A stretch of DNA of 64,000 bases from the NCBI GenBank assembly GCA_036365455.1, contig JAWQUS010000023.1, positions 930,001 through 994,000 on the forward strand. Direction: 5' to 3'. Of this stretch, positions 33,094 through 64,000 are shown one piece after another. Numbering within the stretch: position 1 is the stretch's first letter; the number at the start of each line of letters is the position of its first letter. A program made the translations under genes and the position numbers. The notes beneath the pieces are model-generated. The model did no database searches. It was not told where the DNA came from and worked only from the letters and a program-made list of their open reading frames with translations. Source of the stretch: Macrosoma leucophasiata. Its lineage: Eukaryota; Arthropoda; Insecta; Lepidoptera; Hedylidae.

Positions 33094-33242
33094 ATGTCGG
33101 AATCTTCCAAATCCAAATCATCAAATTTAAATCCGCCGCCGACTTTACAATGTAAAGATTTACATGAATATCTCAAAAGTCGATCGCCGCAGTTTTTGGA
33201 GACTCTATACAACTATCCGACAATATGTTTGGCTGTATACAG
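33094..33242 (+). CDS. Tfb2: p52 exon 1
   Basis: ATG at 33094 (ttATGtcgg) starts [28 protein letters not shown] and [11 protein letters not shown] then match the conserved p52 N-terminus. The donor is ACAG|gtcagt. No upstream in-frame coding extension is needed. Confidence 0.9.
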
Positions 33243-36200
33243 GTCAGTAAACTGTAACATTGTTGTTTAGTAGACAATAATAAGTGTAAATACTGTAAGA
33301 TTTTATTTGTCATTTGAGGTTATGTTTGATAATAAAAATTTTTAGTTCAAAGTAGCTGTGATTCGCAAAAGTTATCTGTAATGTGACTGCACATTTAGTT
33401 GCTAAATTGCATTCATTCGGAAGTTATTATTATTTATTCCAAACATGTTTTTAAGATTTGCTGTACACGTTTATAAAAAAATCTACCTAATTGTAGTGTA
33501 AAATATATTTCATCAGCCCAATGCCGATGTTACGACCATTGACACCACAGGCAAGAATATTACAAATCTGTGAATGAAAAACATGCAAGCAAAAAAAAAC
33601 ATCTATATGCATTGATTTACCAAAAAAAAAAAAAACAAAAAACAGAAATAGAAATAGAATGGGGATAAAACACAGGACCATAGCCTTACAGTGCAGATTT
33701 TTTGTCATAATGCATTGCATCTATTGTTTCCAGAGAGTTACCAGACCTAGCTCGACATTTTGTGATTCGTCTCCTGTTCGTGGAACAGCCGGTGCCGCAG
33801 GCTGTGGTCGCTTCGTGGGTTTCACAAGCACATTCGAAGTAACTATTCCAGACACAAATAATACTTCTGAATTTGACATTTCAACAAAAAAACAATGAGG
33901 TACACAATAGGCTAGTTGCTACTATGTAAAATAATGAATAGTTTTTGTTGTGATTGAATAATAATTTAACATTACCAAAATCAAGCTAAATGGTTAAAAT
34001 ATTTAAGAATAAATAGTATTTTCATGCATTAAATGCATATCATTGCAAAAGTTGATCACGTGACACCAATCAAATGAGAATGTATGACATCACATCTTCT
34101 TAAGCGTTGTATCGAGTAGTATCAAACAGACGCCATGACACTTCACAGCGTTTTAGAGTGAAATGAAAACGAGTAACCTTTATAACCAAAATAAACATAT
34201 TTATCTTTTGTATTCAGTAAAAATATTAATATTTACGAAATAACTAAACGTTTTGGAAGCCATAAAAGTAATTTTAGAAAAACTGACCACTGCTCGCCTT
34301 TTATTTGTATGTAAAATAAAACATATGTAGTAAGTGTACATTGAAAATCACTCCGCGCGGTCGCCTCGAAACATACCTACAGATCGCGATACCGCCGGCG
34401 GTGTTTGGACTAGAGAGGCACTTAGCAAATTGTTAGCCACGCAACAAGGTTGTTCTTAAATTTATATTATAAATATAATATGAACAATTAACTTGCACCT
34501 TATTGTCGGTACGAAGCACTGTTTGCTTCTAACCGATAATAGGGTGCAAGTTCTTTGAATGTCTTTCTAAAGAGCACCTTCTTAAATTATGACGACCTAT
34601 TCTGTGACACAACAACACAATAATTTTTGAACTTACCACTAAGTCACTCAATAACTTTTTTCCAACAGGGACCAGATCAAAGCATGCGAGGCGTTATCGG
34701 AGCTGTCGGTGTGGCAGGACGCGCCGATCCCGGGCGGCATGCCTGGCTGGATGCTCGCGCAGTCCTTTAAGAAGAACTTGAAGGTCGCTTTGCTTGGAGG
34801 GTAAAGATGCTTAATATCTTATATGTATGTAACTTTATAAAGCGCGCATGGCCCAGCGGCTGGTGTAGATCGTAAGCGATCTACTCGGTTAAGCATTACG
34901 GGCGTGGTCGGGTGTGTGATGGGTGACCGCTAGTGGCAAATTAAAATGCGCGATTTCGTGCTTCGGATTGCACGTTAAGCCGTCGGTCCTGGTTGCTATC
35001 GATAGATAGCTGTCGTTAAACCTCGTCGGAGGCCCTATACCCATAGGTTCGAAATCGTCCGACAGCGGGTTGGCCACTAACCTGTATCTCCACCAACCCG
35101 CATTGAAGCAGCGTGGAGTGGAGAAAGGTCCAGCTTTCCCCTTAAAAAAAAAAGGGATGAGGCTCGTGCCCAGCAGTGGGACGTGTAATGGGTTACCATT
35201 ATTATCGCGACCCTTGTTTTAGATATGACTAATGACTAATTTAAGAATTCGGTTTAGTGAGCTACATGTCCACTATTGTCTCGCAGCGGTCGGCCATGGA
35301 GCATGTCGATGTCCCTGGAGCCGGACAGCAAGGCGCGCGACGTGGCCTTCCTGGACGCCTACGCGCTCGAGCGCTGGGAGTGCGTGCTGCACTACATGGT
35401 GGGCAGCGCGCAGACCGACGGCATCAGCGGGGACGCCGTCCGCATACTGCTGCACGCCGGCCTCATGACCAGGTCAGTGGCCAGCTGTGTGAGGGTGGCG
35501 CACTCCTGCTGCACGCCGGCCTCATGACCAGGTCAGTGGCCAGCTGTGTGAGGGTGGCGCACTCCTGCTGCACGCCGGCCTCACGACCAGGTCAGTGGCC
35601 AGCTGTGTGAGGGTGGCGCACTCCTGCTGCACGCCGGCCTCATGACCAGGTCAGTGGCCAGCTGTGTGAGGGTGGCGCACTCCTGCTGCACGCCGGCCTC
35701 ATGACCAGGTCAGTGGCCAGCTGTGTGAGGGTGGCGCACTCCTGCTGCACGCCGGCCTCATGACCAGGTCAGTGGCCAGCTGTGTGAGGGTGGCGCACTC
35801 CTGCTGCACGCCGGCCTCATGACCAGGTCAGTGGCCAGCTGTGTGAGGGTGGCGCACTCCTGCTGCACGCCGGCCTCATGACCAGGTCAGTGGCCAGCTG
35901 TGTGAGGGTGGCGCACTCCTGCTGCACGCCGGCCTCATGACCAGGTCAGTGGCCAGCTGTGTGAGGGTGGCGCACTCCTGCTGCACGCCGGCCTCACGAC
36001 CAGGTCAGTGGCCAGCTGTGTGAGGGTGGCGCACTCCTGCTGCACGCCGGCCTCATGACCAGGTCAGTGGCCAGCTGTGTGAGGGTGGCGCACTCCTGCT
36101 GCACGCCGGTCTCATGACCAGGTCAGTGGCCAGCTGTGTGAGGGTGGCGCACTCCTGCTGCACGCCGGCCTCATGACCAGGTCAGTGGCCAGCTGTGTGA

Positions 36201-39200
36201 GGGTGGCGCACTCCTGCTGCACGCCGGCCTCATGACCAGGTCAGTGGCCAGCTGTGTGAGGGTGGCGCACTCCTGCTGCACGCCGGCCTCACGACCAGGT
36301 CAGTGGCCAGCTGTGTGAGGGTGGCGCACTCCTGCTGCACGCCGGCCTCACGACCAGGTCAGTGGCCAGCTGTGTGAGGGTGGCGCACTCCTGCTGCACG
36401 CCGGCCTCACGACCAGGTCAGTGGCCAGCTGTGTGAGGGTGGCGCACTCCTGCTGCACGCCGGCCTCACGACCAGGTCAGTGGCCAGCTGTGTGAGGGTG
36501 GCGCACTCCTGCTGCACGCCGGCCTCATGACCAGGTCAGTGGCCAGCTGTGTGAGGGTGGCGCACTCCTGCTGCACGCCGGCCTCATGACCAGGTCAGTG
36601 GCCAGCTGTGTGAGGGTGGCGCACTCCTGCTGCACGCCGGCCTCATGACCAGGTCAGTGGCCAGCTGTGTGAGGGTGGCGCACTCCTGCTGCACGCCGGC
36701 CTCATGACCAGGTCAGTGGCCAGCTGTGTGAGGGTGGCGCACTCCTGCTGCACGCCGGCCTCACGACCAGGTCAGTGGCCAGCTGTGTGAGGGTGGCGCA
36801 CTCCTGCTGCACGCCGGCCTCATGACCAGGTCAGTAGCCAGCTGTGTGAGGGTGGCGCACTCCTGCTGCACGCCGGCCTCATGACCAGGTCAGTGGCCAG
36901 CTGTGTGAGGGTGGCGCACTCCTGCTGCACGCCGGCCTCATGACCAGGTCAGTGGCCAGCTGTGTGAGGGTGGCGCACTCCTGCTGCACGCCGGTCTCAC
37001 GACCAGGTCAGTGGCCAGCTGTGTGAGGGTGGCGCACTCCTGCTGCACGCCGGCCTCACGACCAGGTCAGTGGCCAGCTGTGTGAGGGTGGCGCACTCCT
37101 GCTGCACGCCGGCCTCATGACCAGGTCAGTGGCCAGCTGTGTGAGGGTGGCGCACTCCTGCTGCACGCCGGCCTCACGACCAGGTCAGTGGCCAGCTGTG
37201 TGAGGGTGGCGCACTCCTGCTGCACGCCGGCCTCACGACCAGGTCAGTGGCCAGCTGTGTGAGGGTGGCGCACTCCTGCTGCACGCCGGCCTCACGACCA
37301 GGTCAGTGGCCAGCTGTGTGAGGGTGGCGCACTCCTGCTGCACGCCGGCCTCACGACCAGGTCAGTGGCCAGCTGTGTGAGGGTGGCGCACTCCTGCTGC
37401 ACGCCGGCCTCATGACCAGGTCAGTGGCCAGCTGTGTGAGGGTGGCGCACTCCTGCTGCACGCCGGCCTCATGACCAGGTCAGTGGCCAGCTGTGTGAGG
37501 GTGGCGCACTCCTGCTGCACGCCGGCCTCACGACCAGGTCAGTGGCCAGCTGTGTGAGGGTGGCGCACTCCTGCTGCACGCCGGCCTCATGACCAGGTCA
37601 GTAGCCAGCTGTGTGAGGGTGGCGCACTCCTGCTGCACGCCGGCCTCATGACCAGGTCAGTGGCCAGCTGTGTGAGGGTGGCGCACTCCTGCTGCACGCC
37701 GGCCTCATGACCAGGTCAGTGGCCAGCTGTGTGAGGGTGGCGCACTCCTGCTGCACGCCGGTCTCACGACCAGGTCAGTGGCCAGCTGTGTGAGGGTGGC
37801 GCACTCCTGCTGCACGCCGGCCTCATGACCAGGTCAGTGGCCAGCTGTGTGAGGGTGGCGCACTCCTGCTGCACGCCGGCCTCACGACCAGGTCAGTGGC
37901 CAGCTGTGTGAGGGTGGCGCACTCCTGCTGCACGCCGGCCTCACGACCAGGTCAGTGGCCAGCTGTGTGAGGGTGGCGCACTCCTGCTGCACGCCGGCCT
38001 CATGACCAGGTCAGTGGCCAGCTGTGTGAGGGTGGCGCACTCCTGCTGCACGCCGGTCTCACGACCAGGTCAGTGGCCAGCTGTGTGAGGGTGGCGCACT
38101 CCTGCTGCACGCCGGCCTCATGACCAGGTCAGTGGCCAGCTGTGTGAGGGTGGCGCACTCCTGCTGCACGCCGGCCTCATGACCAGGTCAGTGGCCAGCT
38201 GTGTGAGGGTGGCGCACTCCTGCTGCACGCCGGCCTCATGACCAGGTCAGTGGCCAGCTGTGTGAGGGTGGCGCACTCCTGCTGCACGCCGGCCTCACGA
38301 CCAGGTCAGTGGCCAGCTGTGTGAGGGTGGCGCACTCCTGCTGCACGCCGGCCTCATGACCAGGTCAGTAGCCAGCTGTGTGAGGGTGGCGCACTCCTGC
38401 TGCACGCCGGCCTCATGACCAGGTCAGTGGCCAGCTGTGTGAGGGTGGCGCACTCCTGCTGCACGCCGGCCTCATGACCAGGTCAGTGGCCAGCTGTGTG
38501 AGGGTGGCGCACTCCTGCTGCACGCCGGTCTCACGACCAGGTCAGTGGCCAGCTGTGTGAGGGTGGCGCACTCCTGCTGCACGCCGGCCTCATGACCAGG
38601 TCAGTGGCCAGCTGTGTGAGGGTGGCGCACTCCTGCTGCACGCCGGCCTCACGACCAGGTCAGTGGCCAGCTGTGTGAGGGTGGCGCACTCCTGCTGCAC
38701 GCCGGCCTCATGACCAGGTCAGTGGCCAGCTGTGTGAGGGTGGCGCACTCCTGCTGCACGCCGGTCTCACGACCAGGTCAGTGGCCAGCTGTGTGAGGGT
38801 GGCGCACTCCTGCTGCACGCCGGCCTCATGACCAGGTCAGTGGCCAGCTGTGTGAGGGTGGCGCACTCCTGCTGCACGCCGGCCTCATGACCAGGTCAGT
38901 GGCCAGCTGTGTGAGGGTGGCGCACTCCTGCTGCACGCCGGCCTCACGCCCAGGTCAGTGGCCAGCTGTGTGAGGGTGGCGCACTCCTGCTGCACGCCGG
39001 CCTCATGACCAGGTCAGTGGCCAGCTGTGTGAGGGTGGCGCACTCCTGCTGCACGCCGGCCTCACGACCAGGTCAGTGGCCAGCTGTGTGAGGGTGGCGC
39101 ACTCCTGCTGCACGCCGGCCTCACGACCAGGTCAGTGGCCAGCTGTGTGAGGGTGGCGCACTCCTGCTGCACGCCGGTCTCATGACCAGGTCAGTGGCCA

Positions 39201-42200
39201 GTGTGTGAGGATGTTGTACCACCGTAGGGATTGCAATCTCGCAGCTTATTCAATCCCGCGGGATTAATATGTAAGATTGATAAATACTGCGCAGATCCCA
39301 TGGGACCCCGCATTTTTGAAATTCTGTTATAAAAATTAACTTGGCATATCTATAAGTCAGGCTTCACTTTCTCACAAAATCTCACGAAAGTTTTAGCGGA
39401 AAACTTAAATTTGCGGGATCCGCGGATCACGTTTCGAAGGTGCGGGATCCAGCAGATTGATTAGGGGTGTGGGAATGATGCATCCCGTTTTGCGATATTG
39501 CAATCCATACTACCGTTGCACGCCCCCTCATTACCAGTACAAAAATGACAAAATCGTATTTAATTATAGGCTTATATATAAAATATTATAAATGCGTGTA
39601 AATATTAAAATTTGTATGTTTGTTTGTTTGTTACTTACTTCACACAAGAACTGCTGACCGATTTTGATGTAATTTGGCACACATAGAGGGTAACTTCGAT
39701 TAACACGTAGGATAGTTTTTACCCCGCCAAAATGTTCCTGTGGGATGCCATGGGACGATTTGATGAGTTTCCACAGCTTACGCAAAGAGCGACATACACG
39801 CGAGGGGGGCCGCAGGCAACACCTAGTAAAATTATAAATTTTACCAAAACGAAAGTGCAAAATTTAAGCTCTGTACGCTCATGATCTTGTCCCTAATAAT
39901 CGCCAACTAAACGTCTCACAATCAGTAAACTTCTTTTTTGTACATTTCAGAGATGCTGAGGATGGCTCAAATGTCATAACGAGAGCTGGCTTCCAATTCT
40001 TACTACTCAGTACAGCTAAACAGGTAAATAAATGACGTAACAAAAAAATTATATCTATGAATCGCAAATAAAAAAATATACGTTTACTATTTATAGTTAT
40101 ACTCATAGTTAGGTATAAACCTGTGTCGTGGGTGCCGATACAACACATACACAAACACCCAGACGGGAAACAAATATCTGTAGGCCATACAAATATTTGT
40201 CCCGGTGCGGGGATCGAACCCGCGACCCTTCGAATCAAACGGTCATCTCACAACGCTGGACTCATAGCCTCATCCTTTTTACCAAGTGTGTTAAATAAAA
40301 ATGTTTTAAATGTTCCTAACTAACCCCTATGATATTCTTTTTTTTTTTTTTTAATACTTACCATCTATCTTTTTTATTATGTAATAAGGTGGCAAACAAG
40401 TATGCAGTTCACATCGATGTTAAGTCATCCCTGTAGTCTATACATACAAAGACCAGAGGCCAAAATCCAGGAGCATTGCCACCTCTGAAACATTTAGTTG
40501 TTATGTCTTTGTGATAGTGATCGGTGATATGACTGTTTAAAGAAAATTTTAACTTCAGGCGGGACTAGAACCCGCAACCACTAAGAATCTAGTCCAGTCG
40601 TTCTCCCACCTGAGCTACCAAAGTCCACACTGGATTTGTCAAATTGTTCCATGTCATTTATTGCATTGCCTTATGGCGGCAGTAGCGACACCTATTGCCA
40701 ACAATGCTAGTTAGCCAATCTATACAAGATGTAAAGGCAAGGTCCAGCAATATTGAAAGGTGTTCATCTATATCAAGTTTCAAATAATTTATTTATTTTA
40801 TACGCGATATAAATCCGTAAATTCAATTATGTAGAGAGGCTGCCTGAAAGAGGTGATGCGCTAATTACTTTGGCAGAGGGGAAAGCCTGCATATGCCTAC
40901 TCCCCTCCGGTCCGCCGGCCGGTGGCCCGTGTTGCTCTGATATATTATATACCTATTTCAGTGATAGTAGTTTTTATTTCATAGTTTTTTTTATTTTTCT
41001 GCAACATTTTGTGGTTTTTTCTTGTACAACCTTAAGGTTGACCGGCAGATAATGCCTAAAGGCATTAAGTCCACCTTATAACGTGTGCATTAAAGTTTAA
41101 ATAAATAAATAACCGATACGACTGTTGTAACTCGCGGCGGGGCAGGTGTGGCTGTTCCTGCAGCACTACCTGCACACGGCGGAGAAGCGCAGCCTGAGCG
41201 CCGCCGACTGCCTCGCCTTCCTCTACCAGCTCAGCTTCTCCACGCTCGGCAAGGTGCCTACCGATTTTTTTTTTTTAATAATAATTTGTTTTACGGCCAC
41301 GGATTCAAGTCCTTTGCGGCCTACGCGAGTGACGATCGGCTAGTTTCGACTTCGTAAAGCGTTATCTCTGCTGCACACCGCCTACGTAAATGTTTATGGT
41401 CCGGTATTGGACAAAACTTAATCTGAATATTTTTTTAAAGGAAAATGTTAGGAAAAAATTTACTATTATGTAAAGGTCGTGAGCTACCTTGGAGTTTCAC
41501 AATTGCTTTCATACCTCAAACGGAGGCAGAATGTCAAGTTGACGTTATGAGTTACAACTAAGAATACCAATTCCATTGAGTATGGTTTAGTTAAGGATGA
41601 GATTACGCCTTAGAATATGGGTGTTAGTTCTTTGTGTGCATTATTGCATACAATTTATAAGAGATCTATATTGATCAAAGAGTTCAAACATTTTCAACAG
41701 TTCAAAGCATTCTGAATGTATTGGCTGACAGACTGGACTGTCCTATATGGAAACACTGGATCAGTGTACATATGGGACTGTCCGATTCTTCTTCTTTATT
41801 ATATAGTAAACTAGCTGTTGCCCGCAGCTTCGCCCGCGTGGATGTCGTTTTATAAATATTTTTTCCTGAATTTTCTTGCTCTTTTCTTTGCTATAAACCT
41901 CACGGAGCCCGAGACCTTTCCAACGAATGCAAAACCGTGGCAATCGGTACGTGCGTTCTGGAGTTATAGCGTCAGGAAGGAAAACCCGACTTATTTTTAT
42001 ATAGTAGATAATGTATAATTGACATTGTAATGAATTTTATTAGATTGTCCACTAACACTTAGTTTATTGAGTCTCTTACTAACAAATAATGAATGGATTT
42101 TTGATTATCTGAATAAACAATAATAAATTAAATCAAATTAAATCAAGAATAAAGAGCGCAATCTGTCTATGAAACCCATAGACAGATTGTCGCTTTCATT

Positions 42201-45200
42201 CTTCCCGTCTCATTTTCTTCCACGTTAAATCACATGAACAAAAGCAGAAAAATCGAGAATCAAAATGCAGATGCGTTGCCACTCAGGCTTCAGTAGTTTT
42301 ACCTCTGTGAAAGTGATAACAGGAGGTGCTGTAGATGTTTGTATGCGTGTGGTTGTGTGCAGGACTACAGCACGGCGGGCATGAGCAACAACATGCTGGT
42401 GTTCCTGCAGCACCTGCGCGAGTTCGGCCTCGTCTACCAAAGGAAGGTCTGTCATTCATGAACTTCAATATTTTGATTGCTGTTTTAAATTAATAATTAG
42501 TTAAAATATTTAAAAAAAAAAACATTTCTATGAATTGATAACCTCCTCCTTTTTTCGAAGTCGTTTAAAAAGAATTCAAGAAGTTTTTTTCAATATATTT
42601 TTTTTGTTTTACGATGGTGGCAAACAAGTATGCAGTTCACGTTGGTGTTGAGTGATGACTGTAGCCTATCTATAGACATTTTTTATTGTAATCGCCATTT
42701 GATTTTTTTTTTTTTGTTATGGCTTCGCTATTGCGCATATTGCCAGTGTCAAGTAAAACGATATTTCGTATTTATTTAAGCAGCATAAAAGTTAATATAA
42801 TATAGTCATCAAGTATAATATGTAAGTATTAAGTATATAAGTTATCAAGTATAATATGTCAGTCAAGTGAGTTACAATCAAGTTATTCGAGTAAAGCGAT
42901 GGCTACTTTACCAGAACATTTACAATGAAGTTTTGGAGGCAACCTGAAAGGTCGTGTTTTCGCACTGTTATTCTATTTCACTATACACGGGCACTGTAAT
43001 AAACTTATATCAAACAAAATGCCACCAACTTTATTCAATATAACTTAAAAATACACCAAGAAAATGAAATAAAATAAGAGCACCATACGCCTCTTTCAAG
43101 GTTCCCGCCAAAACTCCCATTTGATTTATCTCATTTATTAACATTAACTCTCTTATTCATAAACGTACATTAGATACGTTTTAGCTATAGAATGCTTTGC
43201 CTTTGTCAGTTGCATTGTCCAATGTGCAGGATAGAAAAAGACAAAGGAGAGATTAGCAACACTTTAGCTAAAATGCGTTTATGAATAAGGGGGTAACTCT
43301 TTGATGTATATCCCATATACATGAGACTATCACACCGGAGATTTGAATTGTATTTTTATGAATACACAGCATTATTTTTCATTCGTTTTATTTTTTGTTA
43401 TTGTGAACTGTTACTTACTTTACGCAGGCAGTTTTACTCAGTGGCATTTCGGTTTTGCATGTATCAGGGACTACTGAAAATGAAAAAAAAAACAACTTAA
43501 AGCACTTGTAGTAGTATAGTGTCAAATTTACTATACCGCTATAACCACTATATTCATTTACGTCCCATTATTTCAATGTAGAAACGCGCATTGCCCCGCG
43601 TCTGTTGTAGATCGGAAGCAATCGACTCGGTTGTGCGATAAGGGCGCGGTCGGATGTGTGATGGGTGCGCGTTTCTGTGCTTCAGAGGGCGTGTTGAGCC
43701 GTCGGTCCCGGTTGCTATCGATAGATAGCAGGCGTTAATCCTTGTCGGAGGCCTTATGGGAGGTTTGCAAACATCCGACAGCGGGTTGGCCACTAACCCA
43801 TATCTCCACCAACGCACATTGGAGCATTGTGGTGGAGTAAGCTCCAGGCCTCCCCCCAAAGAAGGGGAGAGACTCGTGCCCAGCAGTGGGACTTGGGGTT
43901 GCCATTATTATTATTATATTTCAGCGTAAAGACGGTCGTTTCTACCCGACCCGGCTGGCGTTGAACATCACGTGCGTGAGGGACGGGGTGGCGCCGCTGG
44001 GCGCGGGGGTGGGCGAGGGGGAGGGCGGGGCGGGGGCCCCCCGGGGGTACATCGTGGTGGAGACCAACTACCGCGTGTACGCCTACACGCAGAGCAGCCT
44101 GCAGGTCGCCTTGCTGGGGCTCTTCACCGAACTTATATACAGGTAACTACAGAATCAGAAAGGACATGTTCCATGTTGGGCTCGCGCCTTATACACTCTA
44201 TCAAAAGGTAGACAAAAGCACGGGATCCTTCCGTTTGGCAAGATATTTTTTATCAAATCTTACTTCCCAAGAAACTTATCGCACTAGTTTAATTCCCAAA
44301 AGAATCTTTAGCAAATTTATATTTATATTTCGCATTTTAAAATTTTAATCTCTTGGTCAAATATTTATTAAGCAACTTTTTACTTCCTCAAGTATTTTAT
44401 TAAGACAAATAATAATATACAATGCAAATGCATTTTGTAAAAAATTATATTCCAAAAATGAGGTTGTCAAATTTTAATTTTAATATGGGTTAGAACTGTG
44501 ACCTTAATAAAGCGCGAGCCGAGCTTTTTTGTGTAAGCTGTGTGTTAGTAATAGGTTTATTCCCGTTGTCCCCGAGTCCCGTGTCCCCGTCGCACGGGAC
44601 TCTAACAACTAAGACAAAGACAAGTAATACATTGTGTGTAGATTCCCGAACTTGGTGGTGGGCGTACTGACGCGAGAGTCGGTGCGGCAGGCACTGCGGG
44701 GCGGCATCTCCGCCGACCAGATCGTGCACTACCTGGGCCTACACTCGCACCCGCAGGTAGCTCTCTCTCTCTCTCACTCTCCCACACACACACAGTCGGT
44801 GCGGCAGGCACTGCGGGGCGGCATCTCCGCCGACCAGATCGTGCACTACCTGGGCCTACACTCGCACCCGCAGGTAGCTCTCTCTCTCTCTCACTCTCAC
44901 ACACACACACACGCACACACACACACACAGTCGGTGCGGCAGGCACTGCGGGGCGGCATCTCCGCCGACCAGATCGTGCACTACCTGGGCCTACACTCGC
45001 ACCCGCAGGTAGCTCTCTCTCTCTCTCACTCTCCCACACACACACAGTCGGTGCGGCAGGCACTGCGGGGCGGCATCTCCGCCGACCAGATCGTGCACTA
45101 CCTGGGCCTACACTCGCACCCGCAGGTAGCTCTCTCTCTCTCTCACTCTCACACACACACACACGCACACACACACACACAGTCGGTGCGGCAGGCACTG

Positions 45201-50759: not shown

Positions 50760-50945
50760 TCACATGAAGGAGGGCGGAGGCACGGGGCCCGGCACGGGCG
50801 CGGGCGGCGCGGCCGGCGTGGCGGGCGTGGCGGGCGTGGCCGGCGTGGAGGGCGGCGGCTTGACGGGCGCGAGCGCCGAGTGCAATTTGCTGACCGCGCT
50901 GTGCACGATGCGTTCCAGGCCTTCGTCTACTTCGCATTTCACCTC
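50760..50945 (-). CDS. Cpsf73: CPSF73 terminal exon with Pro/Thr/Ala tail
   Basis: Acceptor tttccacag. It encodes EVKCEVDEGLERIVHSAVSK and LHSALAPVK, which corresponds to the normal CPSF73 C-terminus. It then adds about 32 residues of PPPSTPATPATPATPAAPP type, ending PPPSFM and TGA at 50760. The extra tail is encoded by short GC-rich repeats. Confidence 0.88.
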   Translation of the reverse strand, partial: EVKCEVDEGLERIVHSAVSKLHSALAPVKPPPSTPATPATPATPAAPPAPVPGPVPPPSFM

Positions 50946-52943: not shown

Positions 52944-52985
<42 letters not shown>

Positions 52986-55900
52986 AATTGTATCTTTATT
53001 CTATTTATGTAATAAATGTGTATACATTTGTATGTACTAGTTATACTAAGTATGAATTATTATTATGCTCTGTATGTCTGTTGTGTCGTAATACCGCCAT
53101 ATAACTTTCTATACTAGTAATGGTTTAACTGGTAGAGAACGCTCTTAGCGTTAAGTTCGCCATTTGTAACAATATTGTATGTGTATTGTGACAATAAAGA
53201 CTTAATAAATAAATAAATAAACGTTTGTACGTATGAAATATAGCATCTCAGCAATTCATAGTTATGCACACACGCGTAGAGTTCACCTCACCTTCACCAC
53301 GCACGGTATGTGTGTGTGAAATGATGAGCGTTTTCATTGTCAAATAAAATAACATAGAATTAATTTTTACTTTGTATGACAAAGAGGTTCTACTGGTGGT
53401 AGAGCTCCAGTGACGGAGCTCGCGGGCGTAGGCACCACCGCATTACCTAATATACTTGCCGCTAAATGGTAGTGTTCAGCACTATCGTGTTCCGGTCAGG
53501 TGGTAATGTACGGCCCTGTAATTTCCGGCACAGAGGCATAACACCTTAGGCCTCAGGAGTGGCAACGCATCTGCATTTTGACCTTGGTTTTTTTGTAAGT
53601 GTCTATAGTCTAAGTGAACTGCATGCTTGTTTGCCACTTCCATAACAAAAAAAAAAAAAAAAAAAAAAAAAAGGTTGTGATTTCATTGTAATTGTTTCAC
53701 GTTAAATAATTTGAAACTTCATATAGATGAACAACCTTTCCGGTTACAACTTTGCGTACAACGTGTAACGGGAATGATGTACACCCTCAAACACTCCAAA
53801 TTTGAAAAACGATTTAAAATCATAATTATGAACTGAAATTACGTGTTTATGTGTTAAACATTTTATATTTCAGAATAAAGTTGTCCTCAATCTGTACGAA
53901 CGGAATGCACATCCTACACATGCACATTTACCCACTTTAACACTCGCTAGTGATAAGATTCATTTTCACTACATATTATTTTCTTAAATTTTTATTTGCC
54001 AGCACCCTTGCACCGGCTTCGCACGTGTACAATTAACATTAGCCGCGAGGCTATACCTATAGGTATCACAGAATTTACAATATTTTTTTTGCCTCTCCTA
54101 TGCATCACAGCGTAGTGTTATTATAGCCTAAAACCTACCTCGATAAATGGACTATCTTACATTTAAAGAATTGGACCACCGCCTTTCCCCTTCATGACTG
54201 TCCGCCGGCTTTGCACCGCTTTTGCTGTGATGTTATTTTAAAACTGCTATATTCTCTCAAGATATTAATAAGAGATTTGGATCCGACGCATGTACAATGG
54301 GCAGTATGCGGTGTGGGGTGTGTGGGGTGTGTGGGGTGTGGGCACCTCGAGCGTGACGATGGGCGGGTCGAGCGCGAGGTCGAGGCAGCCGTAGAGGCGC
54401 CAGCGCGTGTCGGACAGGAAGTCGACGGCGCGGGCAGTATGTACAATGGGCAGTATGGGGTGTGTGGGGTGTGTGGGGTGTGTGGGGTGTGGGCACCTCG
54501 AGCGTGACGATGGGCGGGTCGAGCGCGAGGTCGAGGCAGCCGTAGAGGCGCCAGCGCGTGTCGGACAGGAAGTCGACGGCGCGGGCAGTATGTACAATGG
54601 GCAGTATGGGGTGTGTGGGGTGTGTGGGGTGTGTGGGGTGTGGGCACCTCGAGCGTGACGATGGGCGGGTCGAGCGCGAGGTCGAGGCAGCCGTAGAGGC
54701 GCCAGCGCGTGTCGGACAGGAAGTCGACGGCGCGGGCAGTATGTACAATGGGCAGTATGGGGTGTGTGGGGTGTGTGGGGTGTGTGGGGTGTGTGGGGTG
54801 TGTGGGGTGTGGGCACCTCGAGCGTGACGATGGGCGGGTCGAGCGCGAGGTCGAGGCAGCCGTAGAGGCGCCAGCGCGTGTCGGACAGGAAGTCGACGGC
54901 GCGGGCAGTATGTACAATGGGCAGTATGGGGTGTGTGGGGTGTGTGGGGTGTGTGGGGTGTGGGCACCTCGAGCGTGACGATGGGCGGGTCGAGCGCGAG
55001 GTCGAGGCAGCCGTAGAGGCGCCAGCGCGTGTCGGACAGGAAGTCGACGGCGCGGGCAGTATGTACAATGGGCAGTATGGGGTGTGTGGGGTGTGTGGGG
55101 TGTGTGGGGTGTGTGGGGTGTGTGGGGTGTGTGGGGTGTGTGGGGTGTGTGGGGTGTGGGCACCTCGAGCGTGACGATGGGCGGGTCGAGCGCGAGGTCG
55201 AGGCAGCCGTAGAGGCGCCAGCGCGTGTCGGACAGGAAGTCGACGGCGCGGGCAGTATGTACAATGGGCAGTATGGGGTGTGTGGGGGTGTGTGGGGTGT
55301 GGGCACCTCGAGCGTGACGATGGGCGGGTCGAGCGCGAGGTCGAGGCAGCCGTAGAGGCGCCAGCGCGTGTCGGACAGGAAGTCGACGGCGCGGGCAGTA
55401 TGTACAATGGGCAGTATGGGGTGTGTGGGGTGTGTGGGGTGTGTGGGGTGTGTGGGGTGTGGGCACCTCGAGCGTGACGATGGGCGGGTCGAGCGCGAGG
55501 TCGAGGCAGCCGTAGAGGCGCCAGCGCGTGTCGGACAGGAAGTCGACGGCGCGGGCAGTATGTACAATGGGCAGTATGGGGTGTGTGGGGTGTGTGGGGT
55601 GTGTGGGGTGTGGGCACCTCGAGCGTGACGATGGGCGGGTCGAGCGCGAGGTCGAGGCAGCCGTAGAGGCGCCAGCGCGTGTCGGACAGGAAGTCGACGG
55701 CGCGGGCAGTATGTACAATGGGCAGTATGGGGTGTGTGGGGTGTGTGGGGTGTGTGGGGTGTGTGGGGTGTGGGCACCTCGAGCGTGACGATGGGCGGGT
55801 CGAGCGCGAGGTCGAGGCAGCCGTAGAGGCGCCAGCGCGTGTCGGACAGGAAGTCGACGGCGCGGGCAGTATGTACAATGGGCAGTATGGGGTGTGTGGG

Positions 55901-58900
55901 GTGTGTGGGGTGTGTGGGGTGTGGGCACCTCGAGCGTGACGATGGGCGGGTCGAGCGCGAGGTCGAGGCAGCCGTAGAGGCGCCAGCGCGTGTCGGACAG
56001 GAAGTCGACGGCGCGGGCAGTATGTACAATGGGCAGTATGGGGTGTGTGGGGTGTGTGGGGTGTGTGGGGTGTGGGCACCTCGAGCGTGACGATGGGCGG
56101 GTCGAGCGCGAGGTCGAGGCAGCCGTAGAGGCGCCAGCGCGTGTCGGACAGGAAGTCGACGGCGCGGGCAGTATGTACAATGGGCAGTATGGGGTGTGTG
56201 GGGTGTGTGGGGTGTGTGGGGTGTGTGGGGTGTGGGCACCTCGAGCGTGACGATGGGCGGGTCGAGCGCGAGGTCGAGGCAGCCGTAGAGGCGCCAGCGC
56301 GTGTCGGACAGGAAGTCGACGGCGCGGGCAGTATGTACAATGGGCAGTATGGGGTGTGTGGGGTGTGTGGGGTGTGTGGGGTGTGTGGGGTGTGGGCACC
56401 TCGAGCGTGACGATGGGCGGGTCGAGCGCGAGGTCGAGGCAGCCGTAGAGGCGCCAGCGCGTGTCGGACAGGAAGTCGACGGCGCGGGCAGTATGTACAA
56501 TGGGCAGTATGGGGTGTGTGGGGTGTGTGGGGTGTGTGGGGTGTGGGCACCTCGAGCGTGACGATGGGCGGGTCGAGCGCGAGGTCGAGGCAGCCGTAGA
56601 GGCGCCAGCGCGTGTCGGACAGGAAGTCGACGGCACGGGCAGTATGTACAATGGGCAGTATGGGGTGTGTGGGGTGTGTGGGGTGTGTGGGGTGTGGGCA
56701 CCTCGAGCGTGACGATGGGCGGGTCGAGCGCGAGGTCGAGGCAGCCGTAGAGGCGCCAGCGCGTGTCGGACAGGAAGTCGACGGCGCGGGCAGTATGTAC
56801 AATGGGCAGTATGGGGTGTGTGGGGTGTGTGGGGTGTGTGGGGTGTGGGGGTGTGGGCACCTCGAGCGAGTGACGATGGCGGGTCGAGCGCGAGGTCGAG
56901 GCAGCCGTAGAGGCGCCAGCGCGTGTCGGACAGGAAGTCGACGGCGCGGGCAGTATGTACAATGGGCAGTATGGGGTGTGTGGGGTGTGTGGGGTGTGTG
57001 GGGTGTGGGCACCTCGAGCGTGACGATGGGCGGGTCGAGCGCGAGGTCGAGGCAGCCGTAGAGGCGCCAGCGCGTGTCGGACAGGAAGTCGACGGCGCGG
57101 GCAGTATGTACAATGGGCAGTATGGGGTGTGTGGGGTGTGTGGGGTGTGTGGGGTGTGTGGGGTGTGGGCACCTCGAGCGTGACGATGGGCGGGTCGAGC
57201 GCGAGGTCGAGGCAGCCGTAGAGGCGCCAGCGCGTGTCGGACAGGAAGTCGACGGCGCGGGCAGTATGTACAATGGGCAGTATGGGGTGTGTGGGGTGTG
57301 TGGGGTGTGTGGGGTGTGTGGGCACCTCGAGCGTGACGATGGGCGGGTCGAGCGCGAGGTCGAGGCAGCCGTAGAGGCGCCAGCGCGTGTCGGACAGGAA
57401 GTCGACGGCGCGGGCAGTATGTACAATGGGCAGTATGGGGTGTGTGGGGTGTGTGGGGTGTGTGGGGTGTGTGGGGTGTGTGGGGTGTGGGCACCTCGAG
57501 CGTGACGATGGGCGGGTCGAGCGCGAGGTCGAGGCAGCCGTAGAGGCGCCAGCGCGTGTCGGACAGGAAGTCGACGGCGCGGGCAGTATGTACAATGGGC
57601 AGTATGGGGTGTGTGGGGTGTGTGGGGTGTGTGGGGTGTGTGGGGTGTGGGCACCTCGAGCGTGACGATGGGCGGGTCGAGCGCGAGGTCGAGGCAGCCG
57701 TAGAGGCGCCAGCGCGTGTCGGACAGGAAGTCGACGGCGCGGGCAGTATGTACAATGGGCAGTATGGGGTGTGTGGGGTGTGTGGGGTGTGTGGGGTGTG
57801 TGGGGTGTGTGGGGTGTGGGCACCTCGAGCGTGACGATGGGCGGGTCGAGCGCGAGGTCGAGGCAGCCGTAGAGGCGCCAGCGCGTGTCGGACAGGAAGT
57901 CGACGGCGCGGGCAGTATGTACAATGGGCAGTATGGGGTGTGTGGGGTGTGTGTGGGGTGTGTGGGGTGTGGGCACCTCGAGCGTGACGATGGGCGGGTC
58001 GAGCGCGAGGTCGAGGCAGCCGTAGAGGCGCCAGCGCGTGTCGGACAGGCAGTATGTACAATGGGCAGTATGGGGTGTGTGGGGTGTGTGGGGGTGTGTG
58101 GGGTGTGGGCACCTCGAGCGTGACGATGGGCGGGTCGAGCGCGAGGTCGAGGCAGCCGTAGAGGCGCCAGCGCGTGTCGGACAGGAAGTCGACGGCGCGG
58201 GCAGTATGTACAATGGGCAGTATGGGGTGTGTGGGGTGTGTGGGGTGTGTGGGGTGTGTGGGGTGTGGGCACCTCGAGCGTGACGATGGGCGGGTCGAGC
58301 GCGAGGTCGAGGCAGCCGTAGAGGCGCCAGCGCGTGTCGGACAGGAAGTCGACGGCGCGGGCAGTATGTACAATGGGCAGTATGGGGTGTGTGGGGTGTG
58401 TGGGGTGTGTGTGGGGGTGTGGGCACCTCGAGCGTGACGATGGGCGGGTCGAGCGCGAGGTCGAGGCAGCCGTAGAGGCGCCAGCGCGTGTCGGACAGGA
58501 AGTCGACGGCGCGGGCAGTATGTACAATGGGCAGTATGGGGTGTGTGGGGTGTGTGGGGTGTGGGGGTGTGTGGGGTGTGTGGGGGTGTGTGGGGTGTGG
58601 GGCACCTCGAGCGTGACGATGGGCGGGTCGAGCGCGAGGTCGAGGCAGCCGTAGAGGCGCCAGCGCGTGTCGGACAGGAAGTCGACGGCGCGGGCAGTAT
58701 GTACAATGGGCAGTATGGGGTGTGTGGGGTGTGTGGGGTGTGTGGGGTGTGGGCACCTCGAGCGTGACGATGGGCGGGTCGAGCGCGAGGTCGAGGCAGC
58801 CGTAGAGGCGCCAGCGCGTGTCGGACAGGAAGTCGACGGCGCGGGCAGTATGTACAATGGGCAGTATGGGGTGTGTGGGGTGTGTGGGGTGTGTGGGGGT

Positions 58901-61900
58901 GTGTGGGGTGTGGGCACCTCGAGCGTGACGATGGGCGGGTCGAGCGCGAGGTCGAGGCAGCCGTAGAGGCGCCAGCGCGTGTCGGACAGGAAGTCGACGG
59001 CGCGGGCAGTATGTACAATGGGCAGTATGGGGTGTGTGGGGGTGTGTGGGGTGTGTGGGGTGTGGGCACCTCGAGCGTGACGATGGGCGGGTCGAGCGCG
59101 AGGTCGAGGCAGCCGTAGAGGCGCCAGCGCGTGTCGGACAGGAAGTCGACGGCGCGGGCAGTATGTACAATGGGCAGTATGGGGTGTGTGGGGTGTGTGG
59201 GGTGTGTGGGGTGTGTGGGGTGTGTGGGGTGTGTGGGGTGTGGGCACCTCGAGCGTGACGATGGGCGGGTCGAGCGCGAGGTCGAGGCAGCCGTAGAGGC
59301 GCCAGCGCGTGTCGGACAGGAAGTCGACGGCGCGGGCAGTATGTACAATGGGCAGTATGGGGTGTGTGGGGTGTGTGGGGTGTGTGGGGTGTGGGCACCT
59401 CGAGCGTGACGATGGGCGGGTCGAGCGCGAGGTCGAGGCAGCCGTAGAGGCGCCAGCGCGTGTCGGACAGGAAGTCGACGGCGCGGGCAGTATGTACAAT
59501 GGGCAGTATGGGGTGTGTGGGGTGTGTGGGGTGTGTGGGGTGTGTGGGGTGTGTGGGGTGTGGGCACCTCGAGCGTGACGATGGGCGGGTCGAGCGCGAG
59601 GTCGAGGCAGCCGTAGAGGCGCCAGCGCGTGTCGGACAGGAAGTCGACGGCGCGGGCAGTATGTACAATGGGCAGTATGGGGTGTGTGGGGTGTGTGGGG
59701 TGTGTGGGGTGTGTGGGGTGTGTGGGGTGTGGGCACCTCGAGCGTGACGATGGGCGGGTCGAGCGCGAGGTCGAGGCAGCCGTAGAGGCGCCAGCGCGTG
59801 TCGGACAGGAAGTCGACGGCGCGGGCAGTATGTACAATGGGCAGTATGGGGTGTGTGGGGTGTGTGGGGTGTGTGGGGTGTGGGCACCTCGAGCGTGACG
59901 ATGGGCGGGTCGAGCGCGAGGTCGAGGCAGCCGTAGAGGCGCCAGCGCGTGTCGGACAGGAAGTCGACGGCGCGGGCAGTATGTACAATGGGCAGTATGG
60001 GGTGTGTGGGGTGTGTGGGGTGTGTGGGGTGTGGGCACCTCGAGCGTGACGATGGGCGGGTCGAGCGCGAGGTCGAGGCAGCCGTAGAGGCGCCAGCGCG
60101 TGTCGGACAGGAAGTCGACGGCGCGGGCAGTATGTACAATGGGCAGTATGGGGTGTGTGGGGTGTGTGGGGTGTGGGCACCTCGAGCGTGACGATGGGCG
60201 GGTCGAGCGCGAGGTCGAGGCAGCCGTAGAGGCGCCAGCGCGTGTCGGACAGGAAGTCGACGGCGCGGGCAGTATGTACAATGGGCAGTATGGGGTGTGT
60301 GGGGTGTGTGGGGTGTGTGGGGTGTGGGCACCTCGAGCGTGACGATGGGCGGGTCGAGCGCGAGGTCGAGGCAGCCGTAGAGGCGCCAGCGCGTGTCGGA
60401 CAGGAAGTCGACGGCGCGGGCAGTATGTACAATGGGCAGTATGGGGTGTGTGGGGTGTGTGGGGTGTGTGGGGTGTGGGCACCTCGAGCGTGACGATGGG
60501 CGGGTCGAGCGCGAGGTCGAGGCAGCCGTAGAGGCGCCAGCGCGTGTCGGACAGGAAGTCGACGGCGGCGGCCAGCCGCAGCACGGCGTGCCGCAGCAGC
60601 GCCACGGAGCCGCCGTAGTGCACCGACTGCCGCTGCGTCACCTCCGACTGCCGCAGCTCCGTGTACTCTGCCGGGGATATCGAATATGACGGCCTCCAGA
60701 CCGAGTTTCGGTCACGCCAATCTCGGCGGAGACTCGGTAGATGTAGTGTGTGCTGCGTCATATACGCACACACTCTCATTGCATGTAATTAACAATAAGT
60801 TATAAGGAGAATAAATCTAACCATCAACCAGTACAGTCTTTTACTGAACCGCCACATTACAAGAGCTCTAGTGACAGATCTCGCGGGCGTAGGCACCACC
60901 GCATTATAATATAATAAAATAATACTAATAAGCTACCCCGATACTGCAGTGCCTCCGATATGTTTGCACAGGCCCGTACAGATGGCTTTACGGCCATCTT
61001 ACGTAAGAAAACAGCATTATTATTCATTGAAATAAAACTATTTTTACGGATTTATCTCGCGTATATTAAACTAAAATGATTTTTAAAATCAACCCGACGT
61101 TTCGGTCGCTTTTCAGCTTCCGTGGTCCCGGGCAGACTGAGGTGACATTTGTCTGACAGAAGTTTGAAAAAATTATATGTAGCTACCTCCATCGATTTCG
61201 TAAACGCCTTGCGTTGCGTTCAGGATTAACACAATAATTACTTATGGTATCTTGAGGATATATATATGGTATCTGCATTTTGACTTTGGTCTTCGTGTGG
61301 GTGTCTATAGGCTGCAGTCATCACTTAACATCAATGTGAACTGCATGCTTGTTTACCACTTCCGTTACATAAAAAAAAAGATTATCCAACTTCGCGGGCG
61401 ATATTATAGTGCACAAGTGTATGCGCAGACACATGTGCACTCACTATTGCTTTACAACCAGAATAAGCGTCGGTATGGAATTTTAGAGGAGTGTCAGGGG
61501 TGTGACTATGTCGCGACATGTTGGCGATCACCGTCAGCGTGCAGTCTGCGCTTAGACAGCGGCCATTGACGCATTTATATTGGCTACGTTCCACTAATCG
61601 ACCGCAACGACTGCGACCACAACTGCTGAAGTTATCATTCCACCACAAAAAAGCCGCGGGCGTTGTCGGCGAATCTTATAAGTGGAACGCACATCTTGAG
61701 CGCTGTGTGCTCGCTATATGACGGCATTGTGAAATTGTTTTATATTTATTGGATGAATGCTAAACACACCCACACAGATAATCAATGTATAATTTATTTT
61801 TATATTTGTGGTCTGTAGCGCAACTGTCTGTGCCTTTGTCTATTCCGTACTGAACCGTGCAATATACGCGTTAGTTATTTCTATTTTCCGTGTTTCATTA

Positions 61901-64000
61901 AGTGTCCCACAATATTTTTTTTCATTCGTCTCATTATTTTGGAGCCAATTTTTTAAAGGTTTTACTTCTACCACGTGTAAATTGAACACATGTTTTTTTT
62001 TTTCATATTATTTGTTAATCACGAATAGTTTGCATTACGAAACCAAAATATAAAAACTCACTGTTGAGATCGGAAGGTGCCAGTATGTGGTAGTTGAAGT
62101 TCCTCTTGACGAGGACGCCCTGCAGCTCCAGCCCCGGCTGGGGGGGCACCATGGCCAGGGACCCCATCACCTGCACACACACTGTCTCGTTAGTAAGGAA
62201 CATGTTTTTGCGTTATCAAGAAACTTTACGCGGTTACGAGATATTATTTTTACAATTCTTTACCATACTTTTTTTTTCTAGGAAAATATTTTAGGAACAG
62301 TTTTCAACTCTCTAATGTCATCTATCGAATGTGTCAAACTGTCAAAAAACATATTAATATTCAGAATGAAACCAGAATTATGGTCATGTTGTAATAATAA
62401 TTATTATATTATATACGGCGATCCGCGGTGCTCCATCTGGGGGCCGCGTGCCGCACCACACACCCCCCTCACCTCCCACCCCCCCACCACACACACCCAC
62501 CTTGGCCGTCTTGTGCCCGCGGAAGGTGAGCGCGAGGTGCTGCGTGTTGCGCGGCGTGTGGACGGCGAGGCGGCCGCGGTGCTCCCGCTGGGGGCCGCGT
62601 GCCGCACCACACACCCCCCACCCTCCACCCCCCACCACACACACCCACCTTGGCCGTCTTGTGCCCGCGGAAGGTGAGCGTGAGGTGCTGCGTGTTGCGC
62701 GGCGTGTGGACGGCGAGGCGGCCGCGGTGCTCCCGCTGGGGGCCGCGTGCCGCACCACACACCCCCCACCACACACACCCACCTTGGCCGTCTTGTGCCC
62801 GCGGAAGGTGAGCGCGAGGTGCTGCGTGTTGCGCGGCGTGTGGACGGCGAGGCGGCCGCGGTGCTCCCGCTGGGGGCCGCGTGCCGCACCACACACCCTC
62901 CACCCCCACCACACACACCCACCTTGGCCGTCTTGTGCCCGCGGAAGGTGAGCGCGAGGTGCTGCGTGTTGCGCGGCGTGTGGACGGCGAGGCGGCCGCG
63001 GTGCTCCCGCTGGGGGCCGCGTGCCGCACCACACACCCTCCACCCCCACCACACACACCCACCTTGGCCGTCTTGTGCCCGCGGAAGGTGAGCGCGAGGT
63101 GCTGCGTGTTGCGCGGCGTGTGGACGGCGAGGCGGCCGCGGTGCTCCCGCTGGGGGCCGCGTGCCGCACCACACACCCTCCACCCCCACCACACACACCC
63201 ACCTTGGCCGTCTTGTGCCCGCGGAAGGTGAGCGCGAGGTGCTGCGTGTTGCGCGGCGTGTGGACGGCGAGGCGGCCGCGGTGCTCCCGCTGGGGGCCGC
63301 GTGCCGCACCACACACCCCCCACCCTCCACCCCCCACCACACACACCCACCTTGGCCGTCTTGTGCCCGCGGAAGGTGAGCGCGAGGTGCTGCGTGTTGC
63401 GCGGCGTGTGGACGGCGAGGCGGCCGCGGTGCTCCCGCTGGGGGCCGCGTGCCGCACCACACACCCCCCACCACACACACCCACCTTGGCCGTCTTGTGC
63501 CCGCGGAAGGTGAGCGCGAGGTGCTGCGTGTTGCGCGGCGTGTGGACGGCGAGGCGGCCGCGGTGCTCCCGCTGGGGGCCGCGTGCCGCACCACACACCC
63601 TCCACCCCCACCACACACACCCACCTTGGCCGTCTTGTGCCCGCGGAAGGTGAGCGCGAGGTGCTGCGTGTTGCGCGGCGTGTGGACGGCGAGGCGGCCG
63701 CGGTGCTCCCGCTGGGGGCCGCGTGCCGCACCACACACCCTCCACCCCCACCACACACACCCACCTTGGCCGTCTTGTGCCCGCGGAAGGTGAGCGCGAG
63801 GTGCTGCGTGTTGCGCGGCGTGTGGACGGCGAGGCGGCCGCGGTGCTCCCGCTGGGGGCCGCGTGCCGCACCACACACCCTCCACCCCCACCACACACAC
63901 CCACCTTGGCCGTCTTGTGCCCGCGGAAGGTGAGCGCGAGGTGCTGCGTGTTGCGCGGCGTGTGGACGGCGAGGCGGCCGCGGTGCTCCCGCTGGGGGCC
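50760..64000 (-). CDS. Cpsf73: CPSF73 (CPSF3) pre-mRNA 3'-end endonuclease, C-terminal exons
   Basis: Six C-terminal exons are visible; the gene continues past 64000. In transcript order: an exon present as array copies (lowest copy 62501-62587), then 62062-62170, 60483-60667, 52230-52358, 51087-51209 and 50760-50945. All junction phases fit. The encoded 270 or so residues match the C-terminal domain of CPSF73: RNTQHLALTFRGHKTAKVMG, VLVKRNFNYHIL, TDMYADAVIAAIL, FGEDSVPK and VTVDGKRADIDLQT. CPSF73 is the zinc endonuclease that cuts pre-mRNA before polyadenylation and also histone pre-mRNA. Its metallo-beta-lactamase and beta-CASP domains would lie beyond the window. The C-terminal domain seen here is the part that binds CPSF100 and the mCF core. 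Three of the six exons carry tandem arrays at their 5' splice site. Confidence 0.92.
51087..51209 (-). CDS. Cpsf73: CPSF73 penultimate exon
   Basis: Acceptor atgcttgcag, donor CCTTG|gttagt. Its 41 codons encode ECVIEMLQEMFGEDSVPKIF and HVTVDGKRADIDLQTL. Phase 0 at both ends. Confidence 0.9.
51264..52273 (-). repeat. Array C: 77-bp exon-donor units in CPSF73
   Basis: In transcript sense each unit holds the exon tail CTCGCACACAAGCTCGACCG...CACTTCAAG, the donor gtaggt, and a C-rich intron start. Twelve donors are intact, from 52230 downward every 77 bp. A thirteenth, at about 51301, has gtaggt changed to gaaagt. A further shortened end lies at 51264. Older units carry GACGGG and downstream ones GGCGGG, so variants are grouped. 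Running past the first donor reaches a stop at 52149-52151. Confidence 0.93.
52230..52358 (-). CDS. Cpsf73: CPSF73 exon with array C
   Basis: Acceptor gtgctattccag, donor TTCAAG|gtaggt. Its 43 codons encode WQAQPVTDMYADAVIAAI and an Ala/Pro-rich linker, then HKLDRMHFK. The TDMYAD motif fixes it as CPSF73. Its 3' end founds array C. Confidence 0.9.
52560..53220 (+). pseudogene. LINE 3' fragment (CR1-like) with R7 tail
   Basis: At 52770-52890 the plus strand encodes SFGVQAARLWNALPDTLG and FTFKKNLKIYLLR, the typical end of CR1/jockey-like reverse transcriptases. It is followed by a TA microsatellite (about 52950-52982) and a diverged R7 ending (gcgttaagttcgccatttgt, then TAAA repeats). Upstream coding is lost or broken. 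It lies in a CPSF73 intron on the opposite strand. Confidence 0.6.
53393..53672 (+). repeat. Dispersed repeat R1 with long poly(A)
   Basis: The best-preserved R1: complete head (CTGGTGGTAGAGCTCCAGTG), the CACTATCGTGTTCCGGTCAG block, the 3' end and a run of about 27 A. The intact poly(A) suggests a recent retroposition event. A short internal deletion follows GTGTCTATAG. Confidence 0.8.
54297..60568 (-). repeat. Array D: 40 copies of an exon-donor unit in CPSF73
   Basis: In transcript sense each unit holds an 84-nt exon tail (GCCGTCGACTTCCTGTCCGA...CTCGAG), the donor gtgccc, a nested 9-bp CACACCC-type microrepeat of variable number, and catactgcccattgtacata leading into the next exon tail. 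Most unit lengths are 142 + 9n (mostly 151, 160 or 169, up to 196), with a few 1-3 bp irregularities. One copy (about 58038) has lost part of the joint. I count 40 copies including the true exon end at 60483. The unit has no stop codon in any minus frame, which explains a false open frame of more than 2000 codons. Confidence 0.95.
60483..60667 (-). CDS. Cpsf73: CPSF73 exon with array D
   Basis: Acceptor tccccggcag, donor CTCGAG|gtgccc (weak). With the last base of the previous exon it gives KYTELRQSEVTQRQ, then VALLRHAVLRLAAAVDFL and LALDPPIVTLE, which aligns with CPSF73 up to the VVLEW position. The next exon supplies the W. The acceptor and the first half of the exon are outside the repeated unit, so this is the true exon. 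Confidence 0.9.
60668..62061 (-). other. CPSF73 intron with repeat fragments
   Basis: It contains an R1 head fragment at about 60863-60905 (gagctctagtgacagatctc) and an R1 3' end at 61266-61375 with A tail. The remainder, including 61390-61730, has no feature I can support. Confidence 0.5.
62062..62170 (-). CDS. Cpsf73: CPSF73 exon, KRNFNYHIL
   Basis: Acceptor tgtgtgcag, donor CAACA|gtgagt. It encodes VMGSLAMVPPQPGLELQG and VLVKRNFNYHILAPSDLN. The KRNFNYHIL motif is a hallmark of CPSF73. No tandem array sits at this exon. Confidence 0.93.
62448..64000 (-). repeat. Array E: exon-donor units in CPSF73, running off the window
   Basis: In transcript sense each unit has ...cggcccccag, an 87-nt open block encoding REHRGRLAVHTPRNTQ and LALTFRGHKTAK, the donor gtgggt, and a G-rich intron start with GTGTGTGTGG. 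At least 11 copies are visible. Successive spacings from 62448 are 151, 148, 134, 140, 140, 140, 148, 134, 140 and 140, so a 702-bp block of five units is repeated. The upstream start of the array is outside the window. Confidence 0.93.
62501..62587 (-). CDS. Cpsf73: CPSF73 exon piece, last copy in array E
   Basis: Donor GCCAAG|gtgggt at 62501. Its 29 codons (RLAVHTPRNTQHLALTFRGH and KTAK) precede VMG of the next exon in phase 0, as in other CPSF73 proteins. Whether 62587 is a true acceptor edge (cggcccccag) or just the repeat boundary inside a longer exon cannot be seen, because the founding copy is beyond 64000. Which copy is spliced is unknown. Confidence 0.7.

Follow-up and report, generated by a model that had tools for sequence, protein, structure and literature searches.

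Five long, GC-rich tandem arrays in the p52 and CPSF73 genes of Macrosoma leucophasiata are best explained, with a probability of about 0.6, as exon stuttering in an insect, that is, as products of a GC-linked or recombination-linked duplication across an exon–intron edge followed by expansion, with those on the donor side being kept through the tolerance of splicing and coding. The arrays, hereafter designated A–E, were detected by TRF in the window, by which we mean the whole stretch of 64,000 nucleotides analyzed here (C23:930001-994000, on a contig of 20.3 Mb and about 1 Mb away from its end, in a genome of 616 Mb and 61 contigs). They cover 15,577 bp within the window, matching the approximately 15.5 kb given in a first-pass annotation of the same DNA, and each of them begins inside a coding exon, crosses its GT donor, and extends into the intron.

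Gene models for p52 and CPSF73 were assembled exon by exon. The p52 gene (GTF2H4/Tfb2; 33094..48917, plus strand) has 11 coding exons encoding a predicted intact protein of 495 aa, which aligns with human TFIIH p52 over residues 12–483 (518.8 bits) and is closest to lepidopteran orthologues (best match 87%, Pectinophora gossypiella). The whole CPSF73 gene (CPSF3; C23:980760-1014165, minus strand) has 16 exons and a predicted product of 712 aa with CPSF73-100_C, Beta-Casp, and lactamase domains; its 3' part, exons c12–c16, occupies 50760..64000 of the window, beyond which the gene extends to C23:1014165. The two genes together contain 25 donors and 25 acceptors. The first-pass annotation had counted five affected exons among about 17; five exons are indeed affected, but one of them, c11, lies outside the window, in which 16 exons of the two genes are complete.

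Array A (35447..39210, plus strand) originates at exon p4 of p52 (35287..35472, plus strand; GC 0.69; donor CAG|GTCAGTG) and consists by TRF of 63.8 copies of a 59-bp unit, which combines 26 nt of exon with 33 nt of intron; it contains 64 donor copies, shows 98% matches among its copies by TRF, and is decayed at its distal end. Array B (about 44677..47620, plus strand), whose source is exon p9 (44642..44756, plus strand; GC 0.67), has units of mostly 117 or 135 bp by TRF, with 78 nt of exon and 39 or 57 nt of intron, one 53-bp spacing, and 24 donor copies; its intron start is CT/CA-rich and closes with CACAG. The remaining arrays lie on the minus strand in CPSF73. Array C (51271..52275), from exon c14 (52230..52358, minus strand; GC 0.74), comprises 13.1 TRF copies of a 77-bp unit (43 nt of exon and 34 nt of intron) with 13 donor copies. 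Array D (54290..60575), from exon c13 (60483..60667, minus strand; GC 0.73), has a TRF period of about 151 bp and a modal unit of 151 bp (86 nt of exon and 65 nt of intron), with 40 donor copies at spacings of 136–179 bp; a second level of repetition is formed by 9-bp TGGGGTGTG sub-repeats (plus-strand reading), the number of which varies from one long unit to another. Array E (62423..64142, the window ending at 64000) originates at exon c11 (64053-64193, minus strand, just past the window) and is built of 134-, 140-, and 148-bp units, the modal one having 86 nt of exon and 54 nt of intron; the first of its 12 donor copies falls just beyond the window.

Across the five arrays, donor spacings range from 53 to 179 bp, and every array is confined between neighbouring exons. 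Each array opens with the genuine end of its exon as the first copy and runs out distally, by truncation or decay, into AT-rich intron. The copies in between are nearly identical, with 6 distinct unit types among 63 in A, 5 among 23 in B, 3 among 12 in C, 17 among 39 in D, and 4 among 11 in E; the types in D represent mostly length differences (twelve different lengths). The donor GT is kept in 152 of the 153 donor copies, the sole loss being a GA in the last copy of array C; these copies were located by the donor word with 2–3 mismatches permitted, so that heavily decayed ones are uncounted. As had been claimed, the arrays share no unit sequence: nothing in common was found among them beyond low complexity (best cross-match E 0.027), and a genome search with the unit of array A gave at least 28 matches, all at this locus and none outside it.

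Upstream of array E, the next array in CPSF73 follows exon c7 (C23:1008428-1008648, outside the window; TRF period 113 × 1.9). It begins by TRF at about the 15th intron base and is without exon sequence. The rule that the repeated unit always joins an exon part to its donor and the intron start holds for A–E, but it fails just beyond the window, because the c7 array contains no exon sequence. By eye, the c7 array is G-rich and shows units of about 28 bp with GGTGAGT/GGTGAGC motifs.

None of the 25 acceptors lies inside an array (TRF arrays with a period of at least 20 and a span of at least 120), in line with the earlier statement that no array sits on an acceptor alone. The placement of the arrays was compared with chance by collapsing them to one copy and sliding unit-sized intervals over the two-gene region. 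The probability that each of five independent random placements would include a donor but no acceptor is P = 2e-7, and P = 7e-5 when the intervals are limited to a GC content of at least 0.64; these values bear out the claimed non-random placement, which is at the ends of GC-rich exons. The attraction of the arrays to exon edges is strong. The preference for donors over acceptors is suggestive at n = 5: given exactly one exon edge, the donor side would be hit five times out of five with P = 0.031 in the absence of a GC limit, and with P between 0.017 and 0.15 for GC limits of 0.5–0.64 (0.15 at 0.64).

Exon GC predicts the array sites better than the donor as such, because all six arrays (A–E and c7) are at the donors of GC-rich exons. 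Donor-spanning arrays occupy 5 of the 25 donors. When the donor-bearing exons were divided at a GC of 0.665, a cut chosen post hoc at one locus, six of the seven above it had an array donor (the c7 array being counted though intronic), as compared with none of the 18 others (Fisher 4e-5); the only GC-rich donor-bearing exon free of an array here is p8. Exon GC also differed between array and non-array donors in a Mann–Whitney test (p = 2e-5), and within the first 40 bases of the intron GC was 0.53–0.83 at the array donors versus 0.18–0.43 at the others. The GC association describes one locus strongly and is no true test, because the cut was made post hoc and the intron bases belong to the arrays themselves; these points count against a general link with GC.

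In arrays B, C, and E, a direct repeat of 12–15 bp with at most one mismatch (15 bp and 1 mismatch in C) is shared by the beginning of the exon part and the intron immediately beyond the array; it exceeds in length what was obtained in 198, 200, and 199 of 200 shuffles, respectively. The same test found no flanking direct repeat in arrays A and D. GC-rich minisatellites arise, in a general model, between short direct repeats; B, C, and E resemble this model in having such repeats at their unit ends, whereas A and D differ from it. In B, C, and E, the repeats are compatible with an initial step of slippage or unequal exchange, and they could also be remnants of decayed partial copies. G-quadruplexes were rejected as a shared cause, their motifs being near only two of the six array donors (C and D).

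As far as the samples go, exon-end arrays are uncommon in the genome and concentrated at this locus, yet not unique to it. In the 260 kb around the locus, where other genes were identified only from predicted peptides, TRF showed no further GC-rich array longer than 1 kb, and five random 10-kb stretches contained zero such arrays. Long open frames were rejected as an array screen: some exons in the family searches described next had open frames far exceeding their own length, but none of the 15 matched exons of two CCT genes inspected for this reason bore an array. Exon-end ladders of at least three rungs were absent from a PF00118 family search (56 matches at the default E-value, at which weak rungs would escape) and, except at one locus, from a PF00063 family search (81 matches at E-values no higher than 10, with 65 of the 112 candidates being scored). 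The exception, C17:2264848-2266304, gave four spaced matches to one query range, a series that we take to be alternative myosin exons. In a control of the ladder method with PF03849, array B appeared as 22 rungs beside the exon itself; the screen suits exon parts of about 26 residues, and shorter ones such as those of arrays A and C would escape it. At C11:3890582-3891255 and C9:15414390-15415017, neighbouring family matches overlap in query range and may represent two-copy exon duplications.

Tandem donor motifs gave no clear genome-wide excess in two pattern tests. Three tandem copies of AGGTRNGT at a spacing of 55–85 showed no excess (1059 matches versus 1167 in the backwards control), and array C was absent among the first 100 places listed. 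The stricter AGGTRAGT, three times in tandem at a spacing of 20–50, gave 24 matches at six places versus 13 backwards-control matches (places uncounted); two of the six places are at coding donors and four appear non-genic (one place viewed at its ends only), and none of the five arrays A–E fits this stricter motif. In a laminin-N exon (C8:10516500-10517200), the last 13 nt, the donor, and the intron start are duplicated once, 51 bp apart, which is possibly a newborn donor-spanning array; its intron part is AT-rich, so that high GC is not strictly needed. At a GTPase exon elsewhere, the donor is followed by three AT-rich units with AGGTAAGT. A 45-bp array of at least about 1.9 kb was also seen at C28:3071800-3075200, with AGGTGAGT in many of its units and one frame open in the parts read, giving a 15-residue repeat.

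A process directed at the 5' splice site as such, for example R-loop formation, replication–transcription conflict, or template switching on nascent RNA, is an unlikely source of the arrays. It would explain that all five exon-spanning arrays lie over a donor and none over an acceptor, that the intronic c7 array starts right after a donor, and that the AGGTAAGT units follow the donor of the GTPase exon. Tandem donor motifs, however, are not in excess at the 55–85 spacing and only unclearly so at 20–50, 20 of the 25 donors in the same transcription units have no donor-spanning array, the affected donors are predicted by GC, and the asymmetry between donors and acceptors is weak once an exon edge is given. 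Moreover, the avian cases of exon stuttering discussed below involve donor or acceptor in the part of that report cited here (PMC12954441). The earlier proposal of a process focused on the 5' splice sites of GC-rich exons thus stands with respect to GC-rich exon ends but not with respect to donors as such.

Orthologues in other species were surveyed by an exact-repeat scan covering 297 proteins (177 p52 and 120 CPSF73) and by an insertion check of p52 in the first 62 of 120 listed proteins. An exon-end array was found in one of the 177 listed p52 proteins, that of Chilo suppressalis (evm_014358, P0036), in which the end of exon p8 occurs five times in tandem, 57 residues apart, with the copies joined by a frame-shifted reading of the same exon end; the joining peptide appears to back-translate to a GTGAGT-type donor. 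A second Chilo p52 record (P0022) is normal. P0036 looks like an annotated p52 with a read-through exon-end array, an annotation error typical of such arrays. Searching with the Chilo repeat yielded 551 matches, of which the 120 best contained no further exon-end array. The large internal p52 repeats of the non-lepidopterans Medioppia (P0241) and Adineta (P0242) were set aside as multi-exon duplications. Among the CPSF73 proteins, a fish sequence (P0183) showed one repeat in the exact-repeat scan. Mythimna separata CPSF73 (P0156) contains two copies of c9, separated by 10 residues that may represent a GT...AG mini-intron, and a doubled c15 end; this record is kept only as a hint, because its gene model is truncated. 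In the two Bombyx mori CPSF73 proteins (P0179, P0180), the 47 missing residues correspond to exon c11, the source of array E here, an absence that could reflect exon skipping or an annotation effect.

The Chilo array bears on a second alternative, namely that ordinary GC-rich minisatellites unrelated to exon ends met the donors by chance, which has a small chance of being correct. Other tandem arrays are indeed present in introns and intergenic DNA, and the comparison of donors with acceptors gives P = 0.15 at the highest GC limit. The occurrence of all five arrays at donors nevertheless retains its low probability under the GC filter, and a comparable array exists in the same gene of Chilo.

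Splicing at the first donor of all five array exons predicts the normal p52 and CPSF73 proteins. When reading through the arrays was computed, the frame met a stop by copy 2 in array A and by copy 3 in array C, was open and in frame for donors 2–7 in array B, and never reached a stop in arrays D and E. Each unit of array B resembles a 78-nt exon plus a mini-intron, because it closes with the CT/CA-rich stretch and CACAG. This polypyrimidine-like stretch ending in CACAG stands ahead of the in-frame 78-nt exon part, and therefore splicing between copies could add 26-residue repeats. Presumably, the GT...CACAG stretch of 39 or 57 nt is below the minimal intron size.

That selection retains many donors for splicing, as a buffer against donor loss or as a source of variable isoforms, is very improbable; a comparable case would be the human IFI6 minisatellite, which reportedly consists of 12-bp donor-like units in a single gene. 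The retention of GT in nearly all copies, the in-frame donors of B, and the stop-free frames of D and E accord with this explanation, as does the lower variation per copy-base of the exon part than of the intron part in the modal units of array C (0.0019 versus 0.0098). GT retention, however, is also expected from homogenisation, and the copies were located by their donor word. Moreover, the exon part is the more variable one in array A (0.0201 versus 0.0014) and slightly so in array D (0.0008 versus 0), arrays B and E have zero variation among their modal units, and A and C run into early stops. Within-unit variation shows no consistent sign of constraint across the arrays, and the selection for donor multiplication suggested earlier finds no positive support here.

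An assembly artefact, with arrays inflated or invented by the assembler, is very improbable. The 20.3-Mb contig suggests long reads; the arrays have unit variants, length classes (6 types in A, 17 among 39 in D), and truncated or decayed distal ends, all unlike simple consensus stutter; and a similar structure is present in a Chilo contig that was annotated separately, although a second Chilo record is normal.

Exon stuttering was described in 115 chicken genes, in which the lateral part of an exon and its splice donor or acceptor are tandemly repeated through the adjoining intron (PMC12954441, Genome Biol Evol 2026); the following comparison is with the part of that report cited here. The avian exon parts measure 20–187 bp and occur in 1 to 44 copies, more than 90% of the sources being within one base of an exon border (PMC12954441). 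The arrays of p52 and CPSF73 are similar in forming tandem blocks of tens to hundreds of base pairs within introns while the coding exons stay intact, in repeating an exon-edge fragment (26–86 nt) with its splice site, in having sources at the exon border, and in lying in GC-rich genes, a trait to which the AT-rich laminin-N duplication runs counter; the copy number here is 12 to 64. Intron-only arrays, such as that following c7, are also counted as stuttering in the avian paper (PMC12954441). Differences are that all five arrays here are on the donor side, whereas donor or acceptor is named for the birds, and that the copies here are more regular than the imperfect avian tandems. Extensive length variation between individuals is a feature of the avian cases (PMC12954441), and a single assembly was read here. 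In chicken, 190 of 236 introns concerned are on dot chromosomes and 46 off them, this location being a strong preference and not among the three main features named (PMC12954441); the present locus is in an insect, on the 20.3-Mb contig and not on a dot chromosome. The same text remarks on GC-rich gerbil genes, the data not being given there, and leaves the mechanism open only to speculation (PMC12954441).

Two further systems offer partial parallels. The minisatellite of human IFI6 (6-16) supplies multiple splice donors that are used as alternative donors (Turri et al. 1995, via PMC4526556). The units here likewise supply several donor sites, but they hold exon ends of 26–86 nt, and their later donors are known from sequence alone. 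Intron birth by tandem duplication across an exon edge also duplicates splice signals, as seen in the GT...AG around the 78-nt exon part of array B; there, however, a new intron results, whereas here dozens of copies lie inside an existing one. No report of exon-end arrays in insects was found in the literature covered, most subscription papers and preprints being outside that coverage. The present results suggest an insect example, from another phylum, of a phenomenon described in 2026 mainly in GC-rich bird genes.

Under exon stuttering, the substrate would be a GC-rich coding exon running into a short GC-rich, low-complexity intron start, where an error of replication or recombination may duplicate a stretch (modal units of 59–151 bp) across the exon–intron edge, and unequal exchange or gene conversion would then extend the duplication into the intron. 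A selective filter would act on the products: arrays on the donor side would survive, since exon definition by the first donor would persist and leave the protein unchanged, whereas a duplication of this kind inside an exon or over an acceptor would change the mRNA and presumably be purged. The missing flanking repeats in A and D, and the other sampled genes without such arrays, count against this reading. Among four insect orders, the Lepidoptera rank first in coding GC, which the authors of that comparison, in the part of it cited here, attribute to GC-biased conversion and which rises towards telomeres (PMC10978632).

For annotation, exon-end arrays matter in that a gene model may run through them and render them as repeated protein, as in Chilo P0036. 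In birds, exon stuttering has been linked chiefly to dot chromosomes (PMC12954441), and its occurrence on a large insect contig would allow the factor of GC and recombination to be told apart from that of the microchromosome. Very many long-read genomes exist for the Lepidoptera, and the insect case would allow the mechanism to be tested through comparisons across many related species. More tentatively, and at less than even odds, exon stuttering may be a general product of GC-rich, high-recombination animal genes. It would then have arisen more than once in the Lepidoptera, striking the same housekeeping genes at different exons in different families, and open-frame arrays such as B, D, and E might give rise to proteins in which the number of exon-end repeats varies.
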